Source: Chrysemys picta bellii (taxonomy: Eukaryota; Chordata; Testudines; Emydidae). Taken from it: 64,000 bases of DNA. The DNA lies in assembly GCF_011386835.1 (NCBI RefSeq), contig NC_088809.1, positions 62,001-126,000 of the forward strand, in the 5' to 3' direction. The notes beneath the pieces are model-generated. The model worked only from the letters and a program-made list of their open reading frames with translations. It was not told the DNA's origin and ran no database searches. Every line of letters begins with the position of its first letter. The stretch's first letter is position 1. Made by a program: the position numbers and the translations under genes. Below, in pieces: positions 7,125 to 58,311 of this stretch.

Positions 7125-7280
7125 TCTGTATATATATATAATATCCTTACTATATGTTCCATTCTATGCATCTGAAAATGTGGGCTACTTATGCTCAAAT
7201 AAATTTGTTAGTCTCTAAGGTGCCACAAGTACTCCTGTTCTTTTTGTGGATACAGACTAACACGGCTGCTACTCTGAAAC
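7125..7280 (-). mobile_element. Turtle-type short repeat (ggtttcagagtagcagccgtg family), copy 1
   Basis: Read on the minus strand the element starts ggtttcagagtagcagccgtg, continues through the 'cttgtggcaccttagagac' block and ends in an AT tail near 7130. The same sequence occurs at 38212-38394 and, shortened, at 11713-11769. I recognise it as a very common short interspersed repeat in turtle genomes but am not certain of its formal family. Confidence 0.75.
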
Positions 7281-7624
7281 CAATGCTAATTTAACAGTTA
7301 CTTGAAAGCTTGTTAACACTGCACAGACTGTTCCATGATTCCAAAGAACGCTGATTATAAAGGCAAAAATCTGGCCTTGTCCTTCACAGACCGGCCCAAC
7401 GGTTAGGCCCTGCTCCTGCAACACTGGTGAGCCAGCCGTGCCACACACCCGGTAGGGAGGAGGGGAATCTGGGAGAGACTTTGGACCCCTGCCTGGAGGC
7501 TGCAGAACCCGACACCAGCCCACCCTCGGCTTGGGGGAGGGGCGCAGGCGCAACCTTCCGCGCAGGCGCAGCACTTTCCTTGCGGCCAACGGCCAATCAG
7601 CCCGTACAAGCCACTGCATATTAC

Positions 7625-11712: not shown

Positions 11713-11769
11713 TTAGTCTCTAAGGTTCTTTTTGCGGATACAGACTAACACGGCTGCTACTCTGAAACC
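11713..11769 (-). mobile_element. Turtle-type short repeat, copy 2 (internally deleted)
   Basis: On the minus strand this reads ggtttcagagtagcagccgtg, continues through 'gtctgtatccgcaaaaaga' and then jumps to 'accttagagactaacc'. The 'acaggagtacttgtggc' block present in the other two copies is missing. Confidence 0.75.
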
Positions 11770-20644: not shown

Positions 20645-21330
20645 CACTTCATTAACACAGATTTATGGTTGTTTGGCAGTACCGTGTGCCCTTTCAGAAC
20701 ATCAAGTTCAGCAAAACTCAAACTTGTGAAAACAAATAAATAAAAAGTTAAGGTACATGCCCATACACCTTTGTCCTGTGCTGAATAGGAGCTCCCTATA
20801 CTCATATACAGAAAGAACACCATGTCTACTAAATCTTACAGTTCTTTCAACCCCTTCATCCTTATACACACACTAACCTTTCATTAAACCCACAGACCAT
20901 ACTCATCTCCCATTGAACTGCTGACAAATCCCCATGGCAAAGCAAGAAGACTTCTGTGCCCCACTGCTGACACAACCTACACAATACAGTGTTGAAATGC
21001 AGGATACTGGATCTCTCAATGTACACATGCACCTCTTTCCTTCGATCACACACACTGGGGTCCGGGAAAGAAATTCTCTCTCTCTCTCTCATATTCAGAG
21101 GGTCACCAGCTCTTCTAAGCCACTCCAGCTTATTCTTCCACCATTCAATACTGCTACATCTAACACAGTGAATGCAGCTGGAGTTTGTGCAGATAATTCC
21201 CATTGGTTCTTTCCAGGTCCAGGGGGACAGAGTTATGGTTGTATGGGGTGTACATTAACTCTTAACTGTATTTCCTAGTTTTCACAAGTTTGGGTTTTGC
21301 TGAGTTCTACATTCTGGAAGGGCATGAGCT
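20645..21330 (-). repeat. Dispersed repeat family X, copy B, with inverted termini
   Basis: The left end (ccctttcagaacatcaag, cagcaaaactcaaacttgtg, 20690-20740) is matched in inverse by the right end (cacaagtttgggttttgctg, ttctggaagggc, about 21270-21325), giving roughly 45-bp diverged terminal inverted repeats. That suggests a non-autonomous DNA transposon. Internal blocks match copies A and C. It contains a (TC)n run near 21077. I could not identify a target duplication. Confidence 0.6.
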
Positions 21331-21687: not shown

Positions 21688-21821
21688 TAGGGTTGTACCT
21701 ATTTAGAGAGCTGAACTCTTTTCTTGAATAATATTTTAAATTTTGTTCTCTCAAAGGGGTAGTGAGTGCCATGCTCTAGCTGGAGTAAGGGTGGAGTGAT
21801 TGAGACCATTGTGCCAGGAGC
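21688..21821 (+). repeat. Inverted duplication, left arm
   Basis: agggttgtacctatttagag through accattgtgccaggagc is repeated almost exactly, inverted, at 23643-23775. The arms are about 134 bp and 1.8 kb apart, inside CRK intron 1. High identity suggests either two young copies of an unlisted repeat or a local inverted duplication. Confidence 0.75.
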
Positions 21822-23642: not shown

Positions 23643-23775
23643 GCTCCTGGCACAATGGTCTCAATCACTCCACCCTTACTCCAGCTAGAGCATGGCACTC
23701 CCTACCCCTTTGAGAGAACAAAATTTAAAATCTTATTCAAGAAAAGAGCTCAGCTCTCTAAATAGGTACAACCCT
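23643..23775 (-). repeat. Inverted duplication, right arm
   Basis: Starts gctcctggcacaatggtctc and ends aaataggtacaaccct; complementary to 21688-21821 with only a few differences seen by eye. Confidence 0.75.
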
Positions 23776-23892
23776 ATTGTATACAAAGGTATTATCACTT
23801 CCCTTCTAATCGTCCAAAGATAATGTTAGCCCCGTATTTTTCTGGGAGCTAATGTTCTCTTGGTTATCTACAATAACCTTTATATCCTCCTA

Positions 23893-29550: not shown

Positions 29551-30561
29551 CCCTCTAACTAGCCCACTGACAGAGTTCTTAACTGTGTTGCAGGTGGCCA
29601 AATCTGATGCCATTGGCCTTAGAGCTTCACTTCAGCAGAGCACATTGTTCTATCCTAACTTGGAAGCCTTCTGTTTAGTTTGGCTAGAAAGGATAGAAAT
29701 CCATAAGCATGGACTCTCCAAGCAGGTGGCTTATGTCGTGTCATCTCAGAGGCCATCTACAGCTTGAGATAAAAAGGTTTGCCTGTGGTACAGTCAGGCC
29801 CAATTAGTCCCTTTGACTTGTCCTGTGCAAAAATGTTTGACTGTCCTCTTTATCTGTTTGAGTACAACTTAAAAATTAACTCTATCCAGATAAATTTGGC
29901 AGCTATTTCAGTTTATTGTACCCTAGCAGAAGTTAGACTCTGCAGCTCTTTGTCATAAGGTTCAGACAGTTCGGGGCAACTGCACCTGTATTTTCGCTTA
30001 GTGGCCCAGCAAGGACATCCACAGTCAGGCTTCCAGCTCCCCAGCTGTTGGCTGTCTTGAGTGGATCCCTGTCCCTCTCCCTTCTGACAAGGGTATTTCT
30101 AGGCTGAACTGTTTCTTGTGTTCACTGTGTATTTCCCAGTACAGATAAGTTACCCAAGGATACCTGCTTGCTTTCTTTTCAGAGACTGTTAACAGGGTAA
30201 TTGCTACAGTTATAAATAGGGCTGTCAAGTGAGTAAAAAAATTAATCGTGATTAATCACACTGTTAATAATAGAATACCATTTAAATATTTTTGATGTTT
30301 TTAAACATTTTCAAATATATTTATTTCAGTTACAACACAGAATACAAAGTGTACAGTGCTCACTTTATATTTATTTTTATTACAAATATTTGCACTGTAA
30401 AAAATAAAATAAATAGTATTTTTCAATTCCCCGATTGCAGGTACAGTAGTGCAATCTCTTTATCATGAAAGTTGAATTTATAAATGTAGAATTATGTAAA
30501 AAAAAACTGCATTCAAAAATAAAACAAAGTAAAACTTTACAGCCTACAAATCCACTCAGTC

Positions 30562-31246
30562 CTACTTCTTGTTCAGCCAATTGCTCAGACAGACAAGTTT
30601 GTTTACATTTGCAGGAGATAATGCTGCCCGCTTCTTTTTTACACTGTCACCTGAAAGTGAAAACAGGCGTTCACATGGCATTGTTGTCGTTAACGTCACA
30701 ATATATTTACGTGCCAGATGCCCTAAAGATTTATATCTCTTCATGCTTCAACCACCATTCCAGAGAACATGCATCCATGCTGATGACTGTTATAACAACA
30801 AGCACCCACTGCTTGATAACAATCCAAAGCAGTGGGACCAACGCATGTTCATTTTCATCGTCTGAGTCAGATGCCACCAGCAGAAGGTTGATTTTCTTTT
30901 TTGGTGGTTCGGGTTCTGTAGTTTCCACATTGGACTGTTGTTCTTTAAAAACTTCTGAAAGCGTGCTCCACACCTAGTCCCTCTCAGATTTTGTAAGGCA
31001 CTTCAGATTCTTAGACCTTGGGTTGAGTGCCATAACTATCTTCAGAAATTTCACATTGGTACCTTCTTTGTGTTTTGTCAAATCTGCAGAGAAAGTGATC
31101 TTAAAAGGAACAGCATGTGCTGGGTCATCAGCCGAACCTGCTATAACATGAAATATATGGCAGAATGCGGGTAAAACAGAGCAGAAGACATACAATTCTC
31201 CCCCAAAGAGTTCAGTTACAAATTTTATTATTATTTTTTTTAACAA
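30562..31246 (-). pseudogene. hAT (Ac/ZBED-type) transposase remnant in copy 1
   Basis: Frames in order on the minus strand: 30974-31246 (ELFGGELYVFCSVLP, LNPRSKNLKCL in place of LDPRFKNLECL), 30731-30973 (acidic linker, SMDACSLEWWLKHEEI) and 30562-30744 (LARKYIVTLTTTMPCERLFS, hATC). Stops and shifts separate them. The N-terminal BED finger and most of the catalytic region are absent, so the copy could only move by a transposase made elsewhere. Confidence 0.8.
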
Positions 31247-31460
31247 GCATCATCAGCATGGAAGCATGGACTCTGGAATGGTGGCCGAAGCACGCAGGGG
31301 CATACGAATGTTTAGCTTATGTAACTTACGTAAATAACTTGCAATGCTGGCTACAAAAGTGCCATGTGAACGCCTGTTCTCACTTTCAGATGACATTGTA
31401 AATAATCAGGCAGCATTATGTCCTGTAGATGTAAACAAACTTTTGTCTTCGTGATTGGCT
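31206..31460 (+). pseudogene. Inverted hATC arm of fold-back element copy 1
   Basis: On the + strand tggaatggtggccgaagcac and cctgttctcactttcagatg correspond to the EWWLKH and LFSLSDD portions of the hATC coding region. This is the mirror of the minus-strand copy in the left arm and has no open frame of its own. Confidence 0.75.
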
Positions 31461-32221
31461 GAACTAGAAGTAGGACTGAGTGGACTCATAGGTGCTAAAG
31501 TTTTACATTGTTTTGTTTTTGAGTGAAGTTATGTAACAAAAAAAATTCTACACTTGTAACTTGCACTTTCACAATAAAGAGATTGCACTACAGTACTTGC
31601 ATGAGGTGAATTGAAAAATACTATCTTTTGTTTATCATTTTTAGAGTGCAACTATTAGTAATAAAAATAATATAAAGTGAGCGTTGTACACTTTGTATTC
31701 TGTGTTGTAACTGAAATCAATATATTTGAAAATGTAGAAAAACATCCAAAAATATTTAATAAATTTAACGTGGTGTTCTGTTGCTTAACAATGTGATTAA
31801 AACTGCGCTTAAGCACGATTAATTTTTTTAGTTAATCGTATGAGTTAATTACGATTAATCGACAGCCCTAGTCATAAGTTCTACACAGTTCTTTCTATGC
31901 AAACCTACTTTATTCTTAAGGTAAAAAGCATGATAGAGAAAACAATAATTATAAAGACACCTACACAACTCTTAACATGCAGTCTGGCAGGCACAGACCT
32001 TCCAACCCTACCATAAGGATTGGAGCCCTCCGTGGACCAGGGGTCCTGTCCATTTGCTGGATCAGGAAGAAGCCCATGAGCGAGTTTAAAAACAGGCTAT
32101 TTATCCCCAAACACTTTTTTTTGTTGGTCCCAGTTTAAACTACTAGATGGATATCTGTCCGGGTGGGTGGCTTCCAAGGCTGATAATGTAGGAAAGTACA
32201 TTAGCATCCCCACTCCCTGCT

Positions 32222-37930: not shown

Positions 37931-38204
37931 GTGTGTTTTTTGACCAACTACTAGTAACTAACCATAACAGCAATGTTGCTCTCTTGATGTAACATTCAGG
38001 ACAGTAATGCTGTAAAGAGTAGAGGGCTAAAAAAGCTTCACGGTTCATTCTTTATCTTGGGCTTGTACCTAAAATTCATTCTATATGAAATATACAGATG
38101 TCTTATACTTTGGAAATGAAAATCCTGTACCGTCCCAAGTGAAAAGCTGAATGTGGCTGAGTTTATAGATGTGGTAGGTCGAAGACGCACACAAATAAGA
38201 GAGG

Positions 38205-38394
38205 TTTCAGAGTAGCAGCCGTGTTAGTCTGTATCCGCAAAAAGAACAGGAGTACTTGTGGCACCTTAGAGACTAACAAATTTATTAGAGCATAAGCTTT
38301 CGTGGGCTACAGCCCACTTCTTCGGATGCATATATGCATATGCTCTAATAAATTTGTTAGTCTCTAAGGTGCCACAAGTACTCCTGTTCTTTTT
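38205..38394 (+). mobile_element. Turtle-type short repeat, copy 3, with inverted partial copy
   Basis: ggtttcagagtagcagccgtg begins at 38212. The copy runs to about 38338 and is joined directly to an inverted partial copy (38339-38394). The two arms, 38239-38294 and 38339-38394, are exact complements over 56 bp with a 44-base loop. Confidence 0.9.
38239..38394. repeat. Perfect 56-bp inverted repeat (hairpin)
   Basis: The left arm 38239-38294 begins aaaaagaacaggagtacttg; the right arm 38339-38394 ends with its exact complement caagtactcctgttcttttt. The spacer is 38295-38338. In CRK pre-mRNA this would form a long perfect duplex about 1.1 kb upstream of exon 2. Confidence 0.93.
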
Positions 38395-38476
38395 ACAAAT
38401 AAGAAACAAAACTCCTTCATTTCCTTCAGAATAAACTTGGGAGTGAAAATCAGACACTTATTAAATAGTAAAAATC

Positions 38477-39010
38477 TTCATTAACACAGAACATCAAGTT
38501 CAGCAAAACTCAAACTTGTGAAAACAAGGAAATACAAAGTTAAGTGCCCATGCAACCGTAACTCTGCCCCTCTGGAGCTGGAAAGAGCCCTTGGCAATTG
38601 TCTATATGCAGGCCAGTTGCTTTCATTGTTTTAGGTATAGAGGTACTGAATAGTGGAAGCAATATGTGGGGCCGATTGTTAGAGGTGCGTTTGTGATATA
38701 AGGAGATCTGTGGATTTGTTTGAGGAATGCAGAGGTGTGATTTTGATATGTGGGTATCTGGCTCTGTGCCCCCATGCGTAGGATCAAATGAAAGAGGCGA
38801 ATGTGTAACTTGAGGTTCCAGCCTGCATCATTTCAATGGAGAGTTGTGTAGGGTATGTCAGTGGCAGGGCTCTGGGATTGACTTCCCATGGGTTTGGTCA
38901 ATAGTAAGAAGGGATATGAGAGCAGTCTGTGGATTTAATGATGGGTAAGGGGAAGTATAGGTTTAGGTGGCATCCTGTATGTAAGCGTTTAGGAGGTATA
39001 AAACGGTGTT
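38477..39010 (+). repeat. Dispersed repeat family X, copy C
   Basis: cttcattaacacagaacatc and aagttcagcaaaactcaaac match copy B, which has about 35 extra bases between two 'cag' triplets at this point. Further matches are gtaactctgcccctctggag, gatcaaatgaaagaggcgaa and gtctgtggatttaatgatgg. Ends not determined. Confidence 0.6.
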
Positions 39011-39453: not shown

Positions 39454-40110
<657 letters not shown>

Positions 40111-54697: not shown

Positions 54698-56323
54698 TAG
54701 GGCTGTCGATTAATTGCAGTTAACGCATGATTAACTCAAAAAAATTAACTGCGATTTTAAAAAATTAATCGCAATGTTAAACAATAGAATACCAATTGAA
54801 ATTTATTAAATATTTTGGATGTTTTTGTACATTTTCAAATATATTGATTTCTATTACAACACAGAATACAAAGTGTACACTGCTCATTTTATATTATTTT
54901 TTATTACAAATATTTTCCACTGTAAAAATGATAAAAGAAATAGTATTTTTCAATTCACCTTATACAAGTACTGTAGTGCAATCAATCTCTTTACCATGGA
55001 AGTGTAACTTACAAATGTAGATTTTTTTTTTTTTGGTTACATAACTGCACTCAAAAACAAAACAGTGTAAAACTTAGAGCCTACAAGTCCCCAGTCCTAC
55101 TTCTTGTTCAGCCAGTTGCTAAGACAAACAAGTTTGTTTACATTTACAGGAGATACTGCTGCCTGCTTCTTATATGCAATGACACCTGAAAGTGAGAACA
55201 GGCTTTCGCATGGCACTTTTGTAGCTGGCATTGCAAGGTATTTACATGCCATTCATATGTCCCTTCATGCTTTGGCCTCCATTCCAGAGGACATGCTTCC
55301 AGGCTGATGATGCTTGGTAAAAAAAAATAATGCATTAATTAAATTTGTGACTGAACTCCTTGGGGGAGAATTATATGTCTCCTGTTCTGTTTTACCCACA
55401 TTCTGCCATATATTTCGTGTTATAGCGCTCTTGGATGATGACCCAGCACATGTTCATTTTAAGAATGCTTTCACAGCAGATTTGGCAAAACGCAAAGAAG
55501 ATATCAATGTGAGATTTCTAAGGATAGATACAGCACTCGACCCAAGGTTTAAGAATCTGGAGTGCCTTCCAAAATCTGAGAGGGACGAGGTGTGGAGAAT
55601 GCTTTCAGATGTCTTAAAGGAGCAACACTCGATGCGGAAACTACAGAACCCGAACCACCAAACAATAAAATCAACCTTCTGCTGGTGGCATCTGATTCAG
55701 ATGATGAAAATGAATAGGTGTCGTTCCACTCTGCTTTGGATGGTTATCGAGCAGAACCCGTCATCAGTATGGACGCATGTCTTCTGGAATGGTGGTTGAA
55801 GCACGAAGGGACATATGAATCTTTAGCGCATCTGGCATGTAAATATCTTGCGCTGCCGGCTATAACAATGCCTTGCGAACACCTGTTCTCACTTTCAGAT
55901 GACATTGTAAACAAGACGTGTGCAGCATTATCTCCTGCAAATTGTAACCAAACCTGTTTGTCTGAGCTATTTGCTGAAGTAGGACTGAGTGGACTTGTAG
56001 GTTCTAAAGTTTTACGTTGTTTTATTTTTGAATGCAGTTATTTTTTGTACATAATTCTACATTTGTAAGTTCAACTTCCATGATAGAGATTGCACTACAG
56101 TATTTGTATTAGGTGAATTGAAATGTACTATTTATTTATTTTTGTTTTACAGTGTAAATATTTGTAATAAAAAATAAAGTGAGCACTGTACACTTTGTAT
56201 TCTGTGTTGTAATTTAAATGAATATATTTGAAAATGTATAAAACATTTAAATAAATGGTATTCTATTATTGTTTAACAGTGCAATTAATTGAGATTAATT
56301 TTTTTAATCGCTTGACAGCCCTA
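54698..56323 (+). mobile_element. Fold-back hAT element, copy 2
   Basis: Starts tagggctgtcgatt and ends cttgacagcccta, flanked by ttaattaa (54690-54697) and ttaattag (56324-56331), 7 of 8 identical. Both arms are the same hAT 3' end in inverse orientation: left arm about 54698-55310 (hATC on -, visible as ACPLEWRPKHEGTYE), right arm about 55740-56323 (hATC on +). The middle (55314-55720) carries part of the transposase on +. Reverse in orientation to copy 1 at 30217-31870. Confidence 0.88.
55314..56068 (+). pseudogene. hAT (Ac/ZBED-type) transposase remnant in copy 2
   Basis: Frame 55314-55799 reads FVTELLGGELYVSCSVLP and DTALDPRFKNLECLPKSERD, the LDPRFK landmark of hAT transposases. An overlapping frame 55718-56068 continues with MDACLLEWWLKHEGTYE, LACKYLALPAITMPCEHLFS and the C-terminal ALSPAN (hATC). 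One frameshift joins them. The BED finger and the first catalytic Asp region are missing, so it is not autonomous. Confidence 0.85.
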
Positions 56324-56570: not shown

Positions 56571-56951
56571 GACGAACCCATGCGTAAATTAATAATGACA
56601 TATTCAGTGTGGCATTTGGATGATATGCAATAAATAGGACATAGGTCCACATGTAGCAGTCAGACTGGATAATTGTAAAGGTTCCTTCTCGTCTTAAACA
56701 TCTACCCCATTCTCTGAGAATCATCCATCCAGTGTACTGAATTAGGTGAGTACTGAGGAAAAAATTATGTTTGCAATCATGTAATTTAAAAGACTGTCAT
56801 AATGTCTATGCACAAGTGAGCAGAAATAAAGTTCCACAAGCAGCCTTACATTTGGTGTTATCTAACTCTTGAGGGTTTGACTTTGCAACCAACTTACATT
56901 CTTCTAATTATAGATTTTTCTATGTAATCAAATATCTGCTATATTAATTGA

Positions 56952-57249
56952 TCTGCAGTGTAGGTGTAGCCGTGTCGGTCCCGGGATATTAGAGAGACAA
57001 GGAACAACTTCTGTTGGTGAGAAAGACACGCTTTAGAGCTGTTTGAGACTGCAAGTAAATACTTTTCATAGAAAAGTACCAGCATGAACAGTACCAAAAT
57101 GAGCGTAACAAGGAATCAGATACTTTTCTGCACTATGTGATAATTTACTTGTTCTTGTCCTGCAGGTTGGTGAGCTGGTAAAGGTCACAAAGAAGTTGGT
57201 CCAATAAGAGATATTACCTCACTCACCTTATCTCTCTAATATTAATTGA
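56952..57249. mobile_element. Chimeric insertion: SINE head, CRK exon-3 copy, inverted SINE head
   Basis: The unit is bounded by an 11-bp direct repeat atattaattga (56941-56951 and 57239-57249). From left to right: a short repeat head (56956-57040, gtgtagccgtgtcggtcccg, attagagagacaagg, accaac-like aacaacttctgttggtgaga); a copy of the end of CRK intron 2 and start of exon 3 (57042-57192); then the same repeat's head inverted (57193-57243, aagttggtccaataagagat, attacctcactcacc). The target duplication implies the composite was inserted in one event. Confidence 0.8.
57042..57207 (+). pseudogene. Duplicated CRK exon 3 acceptor and first codons (decoy exon)
   Basis: 57042-57192 aligns by eye almost base for base with 58047-58200, covering about 125 bases of intron 2, the polypyrimidine tract and AG, and the first nine codons of exon 3. 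The acceptor (cttgttcttgtcctgcag, ending 57165) is intact. Read in phase with exon 2 it encodes VGELVKVTK, identical to true exon 3, then KLVQ and a TAA at 57205-57207 supplied by the adjoining repeat. Use of this site would replace the C-terminal SH3 by a 13-residue tail. No polyadenylation signal follows closely, and a possible donor (ctg|gtaaag, 57178) would leave a 12-base in-frame microexon. Usage is unknown. Confidence 0.85.
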
Positions 57250-57530: not shown

Positions 57531-58113
57531 AATACCTTTAACTTGCTCTCCCAAACCAGAGAATTTCACCACTATACTCTTATAGCTACCATTATCACCT
57601 GTTTCTGTGTTCAGGGTCTTGCAACACTCCTTTGAGGAATTGTTGAAACTGAGCAGGGCTGTTGTATCTGACCTATTATTTCTTAAAATATTTTGCTCAA
57701 CCTTTCAGTTGTATTTGAGATGTCTCTCTTTTAAACAGCTATTATGTTTCCAATATAGTAATGTATTTCCTTTATACACTTGCAAACTGTCTTCCCTCTT
57801 CTGTTCAGTTATTGGTCCCACCCAGGAGAAATGCAACCATCTAATGTTAGTTCAGCAATAATTAATTTACCACAACAGGAGGGCTGATTTGTCAAGCCAC
57901 AAGAACACACTGAAAGAGACTGGTGCAGGGTTGTAGACTCTATACTGTAGGTAGTCTTCTATCCACACATTGCTGCATTTCTCTCTCTGCTCTTCTGCTT
58001 TCTTCAAGAGTTTAATAATTTGGATTAGGCTGCCAAAGACTGACTATTTGAGACAGCAAATAAGCATTTTTAATTGAAGAGTACAAGTGTAAACAGTACC
58101 AAAATGAGGTTAA

Positions 58114-58311
<198 letters not shown>

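Follow-up and report, generated by a model that had tools for sequence, protein, structure and literature searches.

Among the closest described counterparts of the insertion reported here is Penelope of the rotifer Adineta vaga (Arkhipova et al. 2013, PMC3846280). According to that account, pLTRs lie next to each other in inverted orientation, most commonly head to head with palindromes at the junction, and they are accompanied by target-site duplications of 8-10 bp, sometimes by none. One of the two inverted pLTRs can carry an optional 31-bp tail. The pLTRs also enclose captured host DNA, including an intron-containing gene, and Penelope-like elements (PLEs) are said there to be able to disperse such genes, unlike other retrotransposons, the example being the rotifer. 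As to the template of the enzyme, the same source leaves both sense and antisense RNA possible.

How a PLE enters its target has been described in vitro for Anolis (Frangieh et al. 2024, PMC11167929). Both target strands are cut and extended, ATT is favoured in AT-rich DNA, and reverse transcription starts at an AC-rich stem-loop downstream of a hammerhead; the interval between two adjacent start sites corresponds to the tail. Minimal hammerheads are reported to be conserved in PLEs (PMC7761336). Host RNA is also found in chimeric LINE-1 insertions (Law and Burns 2026, PMC13174262). Their partners, as described, are small RNAs, Alu and mRNA fragments, many of the mRNA junctions lie at splice sites, and antisense parts are ascribed to twin priming.

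PLEs are numerous in turtles: in Mauremys mutica they come third, behind LINEs and TIRs (PMC9098631), and 139,606 Penelope copies amounting to 30.0 Mb are listed for Testudo graeca (PMC11315351). Here we describe an insertion in intron 2 of a turtle CRK gene that frames a second copy of the intron 2/exon 3 border with two inverted repeat arms, and that is probably a PLE product. We call the whole 64-kb stretch of DNA that was analysed the window.

Results

A single composite insertion in CRK intron 2

The window holds CRK exon 2 and the coding part of exon 3 (Table 1); exon 1 was not found in it with the peptide words tried. Between the two exons lies a unit of 309 bases including both ends (56941-57249). 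The initial annotation had described this unit as bounded by an 11-bp direct repeat, and the sequence bears this out: ATATTAATTGA occurs twice on the plus strand of the window, at 56941 and 57239, both times at an edge of the insert, and its reverse complement occurs nowhere in the window. From the base composition, two fixed places would match over 11 bp by chance with a probability of about 6e-7, rising to about 6e-6 over ten registers. This duplication, together with microhomology at the right-hand CRK join, supports reading the unit as one composite insertion with a retrotransposition-type target duplication. We also considered a tandem duplication or separate events, in which the CRK border was duplicated first and the flanking repeats were inserted later. 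Two independent insertions should each leave a duplication of their own; instead, a single direct repeat encloses the entire unit, and the arms directly abut the copy, which makes this sequence of events very unlikely indeed.

Table 1. Positions of the CRK features and of the two-armed insertions in the window.
Feature	Positions	Strand	Remark
CRK exon 2	39476-40011	+	internal CRK-I donor after 39841
Native intron 2 end and exon 3 start, source of the copy	58047-58201	+	exon from 58174
Native CRK exon 3, coding part (C-SH3 end)	58174-58311	+	stop TGA 58309-58311
Target-site duplication, left copy, 11 bp	56941-56951	.	ATATTAATTGA
Left arm, family B	56952-57041	-	antisense; outer 38-nt "tail"
Copied CRK border	57042-57193	+	intron part to 57165; exon 3 part (its first 28 bases) at 57166-57193
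AG of duplicated 3' splice site	57164-57165	+	
Right arm, family B	57191-57238	+	opposite orientation, without the 38-nt tail
TAA stop from right arm	57205-57207	+	CRK-II frame, if copied acceptor used
Target-site duplication, right copy	57239-57249	.	ATATTAATTGA
Comparison insertion, family A	38191-38404	.	two head-to-head arms
Family A left arm	38201-38341	-	
Family A right arm	about 38336-38394	+	
AT-rich target duplication, 10 bp	38191-38200, 38395-38404		ACAAATAAGA

The copied intron 2/exon 3 border

When the two segments are aligned, as had been proposed, BLAST matches 57042-57193 (152 bases) to 58047-58201 (155 bases) at 84.5% over 155 columns, with an E value of 3e-45. The copy sits 1,008 bases upstream of its source in the identical orientation, and its start may be 57039 rather than 57042. 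The earlier description, a copy of about 125 intron bases and 27 exon bases taken from about 1 kb away, stands as to the copy, its distance and its orientation; the exon part measures 28 bases, and the last three of these, AGA, are common to the repeat.

In the intron part, 105 of 124 aligned bases are identical, with an additional 3-nt gap; the differences comprise 13 transitions and 6 transversions (K2P 0.175). The exon part is identical at 26 of 28 positions, and both differences are silent in the CRK-II frame. By a hand calculation that assumes drift in the copy alone, at half of the intron pairwise rate (19/124), about 2.1 changes are expected in these 28 bases, so the two seen give no sign of selection on the copied exon part. 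For turtles the reported rate of evolution is roughly a third of the human one (PMC4054807). Together with this slow rate, the intron divergence suggests an old insertion; we put no age on it, since constraint on the native end of the intron is possible.

The copied acceptor, intact according to the initial annotation, keeps its AG, which ends at 57165, that of the native site ending at 58173. Pyrimidines fill 15 of 20 positions in both, and a TTTAC branch candidate (18 nt) is retained. The native TAATAACC stretch is changed in the copy and is 3 nt shorter there.

The family B arms

The two arms had been read as one repeat head, inverted, at either end. They do belong to one family, but they are unequal. 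None of 5,000 shuffles and none of 4,963 pieces of the window reached the gapped arm-to-arm score of 32.1; the best shuffle, at 30.4, came close. The right arm carries about 25 nt that are missing from the left arm through an internal deletion, and its outer end lies 34-38 nt inside that of the left arm, depending on how four shared bases are assigned; these (ATAT) are common to the arm and the target duplication and would extend the right arm to 57242. A motif, GACCGACACGGCT, stands in the outer tail of the left arm at 56980-56968 in the minus-strand reading. Going by the hammerhead consensus, the family B arm seems to begin inside the region where a hammerhead would lie.

Because the arm ends are unequal, the insert is without matching terminal inverted repeats. 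This bears on a MITE-like DNA transposon that acquired host DNA in the manner of Pack-type elements. Inverted arms around a host gene fragment, with 57226-57242 being 94% complementary to 56986-57002 over 17 nt, would suit such an element. Its ends should match, however, and only 8 of the first 20 bases agree, with the left end reaching 38 nt beyond the right. DNA transposons are also known for target duplications of fixed length, and those found here measure 11 and 10 bp, in insertions of different families. We regard a MITE as very improbable.

BLAST (word 7, E up to 1) returned no further copies of the arms in the window. Pattern scans of viral, bacterial and archaeal sequence collections likewise found no further repeat copies, and a text search of the literature gave no match to the repeat letters. 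The predicted folding energy of the insert RNA is -76.3 kcal/mol (z -1.34); 20 of 200 shuffles fold equally well, so no special structure is claimed for it.

The window contains other repeats. Two fold-back elements, related to each other and each about 1.5 kb long, lie at 30280-31768 and 54796-56256 and have long inverted arms whose pieces are about 79-88% complementary; the CRK insertion lies about 0.7 kb downstream of the second. A 134-nt inverted repeat (21688-21821 and 23643-23776, 98% complementary, 1.8 kb apart) possibly represents the ends of a young element. A 58-nt direct repeat, 95% alike, lies at 20695-20752 and 38487-38544, 17.8 kb apart.

A second two-armed insertion at 38.2 kb

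A comparable arrangement was found at 38191-38404, in a different repeat family that we call A. Here, too, two head-to-head arms lie within a short duplication, and the palindrome ATGCATATATGCAT marks the inner head-to-head junction. The left arm is full and the right arm is 38 nt short at its outer end. The insertion measures 194 bp without its duplications, close to the mean of about 215 bp that division gives for the Penelope copies listed in Testudo graeca (PMC11315351). It contains no host DNA and may be a tidy example of the normal insertion form of the element. A repeat search of the window found further family A copies at 7188-7281 and 11725-11769, bringing the total to one family B and three family A insertions, one of the latter two-armed. 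No flanking duplication was recognised by eye around the two single copies at 7.2 and 11.7 kb.

How far families A and B are related was judged from shared motifs and from alignments. Each of the four insertions carries the motif GAC..ACACGGCT once, close to its outer end; these are the only four occurrences in the window, and both right arms lack the motif. It was absent from 60 shuffled windows, although it was chosen after the fact; the core ACACGGCT alone averages 0.48 occurrences per shuffled window, with four as the highest of 60. Alignment of whole arms does not rise above chance, its score being reached by 358 of 2,000 shuffles. The 38-nt tails of A and B share 15 of 38 bases, a value that 1,165 of 20,000 shuffles attained, as did 3,982 window 38-mers. 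For a short alignment of the tails, 95 of 2,000 shuffles scored at least as high, and so did 9 of 2,942 random pieces of the window. The sequences therefore do not show A and B to be one group, the alignments being at chance beyond GAC..ACACGGCT; the link between them rests on architecture.

Family A has a hammerhead-like core (CCGAAGA, a 6-bp stem and GAAA) upstream of its AC-rich end, with C for U at the second base and one extra A; a comparable core with a stem of at least 5 appeared in 7 of 200 shuffled strands. The order of core and AC-rich end is the one described for the Anolis PLE (PMC11167929), a likeness that is suggestive only. Rfam reported nothing at gathering scores in the whole window, and it reported no hammerhead. 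With a loose threshold it gave 3 and 8 matches on the two insertions, all below gathering scores; among these, miRNA-like matches at 38.2 kb were rejected and attributed to the long hairpin of the insertion.

The 38.2-kb insertion bears on two other explanations of the CRK insert. The initial annotation had proposed SINE retrotransposition with a template switch to CRK pre-mRNA, or replication-based repair. In the SINE reading, a LINE would mobilise a Pol III SINE by target-primed reverse transcription, and a second SINE piece would be inverted. Such priming would suit the target duplication and the chimeric build of the unit, chimeras of LINE-1 and other RNAs are documented, some of them via twin priming (PMC13174262), and SINEs are numerous in turtles, with 331,628 listed in T. 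graeca (PMC11315351). The SINE identity is not supported, however. No Pol III A or B box was found in the arms on either strand, a feature that a truncated SINE could also lack, and there is no simple-sequence tail at the insert ends. One repeat stands at both ends in opposite orientation, and the recurrence of this architecture at 38191-38404 makes the two-arm plan look like a property of the element itself. A SINE origin now seems quite improbable.

The other explanation is repair of the MMBIR/FoSTeS type in cis, in which a break in intron 2 was mended by copying pieces of a nearby repeat and of the exon 3 border and no retroelement enzyme took part. The source lies just 1 kb off in the same orientation, and the right CRK junction shows a 3-nt microhomology, AGA. 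The 11-bp duplication bounding the unit is unexpected for it, though; no family B donor copy was found within the 64-kb window, and a like architecture and offset are seen at 38.2 kb without any host DNA. Repair as the source of the whole unit is unlikely, in our estimate. Repair may have copied the CRK piece alone, inside a PLE insertion.

Probable membership in the Penelope-like elements

We compared both insertions with the traits described for PLEs. Inverted head-to-head repeats within one duplication of about 8-11 bp are present in the two (11 and 10 bp), the head being assigned by taking the AC-rich end as the 3' end. A tail of 30-40 bp on one of the inverted repeats is present as well, at 38 nt (34-38 nt in the CRK insert). 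Both targets are AT-rich and contain ATT, in ATATTAATTGA directly and in ACAAATAAGA on the complement, TCTTATTTGT; since AT-rich sites are common, this lends weak support. The RT plus GIY-YIG reading frame that a PLE or its partner carries is not evident in these short repeats. On the shared architecture we consider membership of the insert in the PLEs probable. The fuller statement, that PLE machinery long ago made this non-coding insertion and captured an unspliced piece of CRK with it, is one that we hold with reasonable, though not strong, confidence.

A possible path of insertion

We infer the PLE identity, which way the element RNA runs (judged by its AC-rich end), the order of steps and the use of an RNA template, and combine them as follows. 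Both strands of an AT-rich target would be cut about 11 nt apart, and both target 3' ends would prime reverse transcription on the element RNA. The top strand would prime at the far start site, giving the left arm with its 38-nt tail, and the bottom strand at the near start site, giving the right arm without one. The bottom-strand cDNA would begin at the target with the four shared bases (ATAT). After about 48 nt it would jump at AGA, a 3-nt match, to position 28 of CRK exon 3, and would then copy unspliced CRK RNA back into intron 2; alternatively, CRK DNA would be copied during repair. The two cDNAs would finally be joined.

Past the right arm, the bottom strand is complementary to sense CRK RNA across the unspliced border. 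That the source lies 1 kb away, includes intron sequence and was copied in the same orientation points to nascent CRK pre-mRNA as a candidate template, but distance and intron content are also explained by repair copying of CRK DNA. Template switching onto CRK pre-mRNA is plausible, then, alongside copying of nearby DNA in repair.

Predicted use of the copied acceptor

If exon 2 (end 40011) were joined to the copy, the predicted CRK-II tail would run through nine native codons (VGELVKVTK) and end in KLVQ followed by TAA, and translation places this stop at 57205-57207, in agreement with the reading first proposed. Splicing from the CRK-I donor (after 39841) would give GGW with the copied acceptor and gives GGR with the native one; since the CRK-I stop lies within the duplicated 28 bases, the predicted CRK-I differs by its last residue alone, R to W. 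The interval from the copy to native exon 3 lacks AATAAA; it has one ATTAAA (58120) and, as weaker variants, one AGTAAA and two AATATA. Splicing to the copy would therefore, in the simplest case, yield a single long last exon that continues as far as the native end. Because the new stop would lie within this last exon, it is probably unexposed to nonsense-mediated decay. What the insertion has produced is a putative second 3' splice site, either a decoy or an alternative, which precedes the native site by 1,008 nt.

A protein search with the exon 2 peptide plus the copied tail gave the turtles Emys, Dermochelys and Pelodiscus as its top three matches, with birds next among the matches listed; Chelonoidis, at rank 18, is 100% identical across 93% of the query. 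These matches make a turtle source likely. Of 1,120 CRK relatives found, 120 were listed, and the predicted KLVQ tail appears in none of these 120, a weak test in a database clustered at 90%. Among the same 120, several CRK proteins end differently after exon 2, and some of these look like intron read-through; Chelonoidis CRK isoform X2 ends in LALEGS after exon 2.

Discussion

The CRK insert shares with A. vaga Penelope (PMC3846280) the framing of host sequence by what are probably terminal repeats of the element, and inverted head-to-head repeats of which one has an optional short tail. The intron-containing gene captured in A. vaga has an 8-bp target duplication, the CRK insert one of 11 bp. 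As described there, the A. vaga captures are a whole gene moved elsewhere, or spacers and non-coding DNA of unstated origin. The CRK insert, in contrast, holds a 152-base fragment of the same gene, taken from 1 kb off, between short non-coding repeat arms.

With Poseidon PAc of Anolis (PMC11167929) we propose a likeness in the two starts of reverse transcription and the extension of both strands, in AT-rich targets, and in an AC-rich start region, downstream of a hammerhead in PAc and of what may be one in family A. The available text of that report mentions no host capture or template jump, unlike the CRK insert, and the turtle repeats are short and without a visible coding region, unlike PAc. 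Chimeric LINE-1 insertions resemble the CRK insert in joining an element to cellular RNA within one target duplication (PMC13174262); the CRK insert differs in that it holds an unspliced local piece and is not LINE-1. In the open-licence literature that we searched, we know of no vertebrate PLE host capture and of no splice acceptor captured in cis.

For CRK itself, the predicted product would resemble CRK-I, the isoform without the C-terminal SH3 domain (PMC2689226), and unlike CRK-I it would owe its truncation to an acceptor carried by a transposon. CRK-III also lacks the C-terminal SH3 domain, as CRK-I does. One may go further and suppose that a turtle PLE-type reverse transcriptase jumps onto the nascent pre-mRNA of its host gene and so plants acceptors, and that CRK has gained a lineage-specific switch in this way, with a CRK-II lacking C-SH3 and a CRK-I almost unchanged (GGR to GGW). 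We find this extended proposal distinctly doubtful.

Capture of pre-mRNA or DNA in cis in a vertebrate, if true, would show the abundant PLEs of turtles reshaping genes. Host pieces lying between head-to-head tails, collected genome-wide, would offer a direct route to the template of the PLE enzyme.
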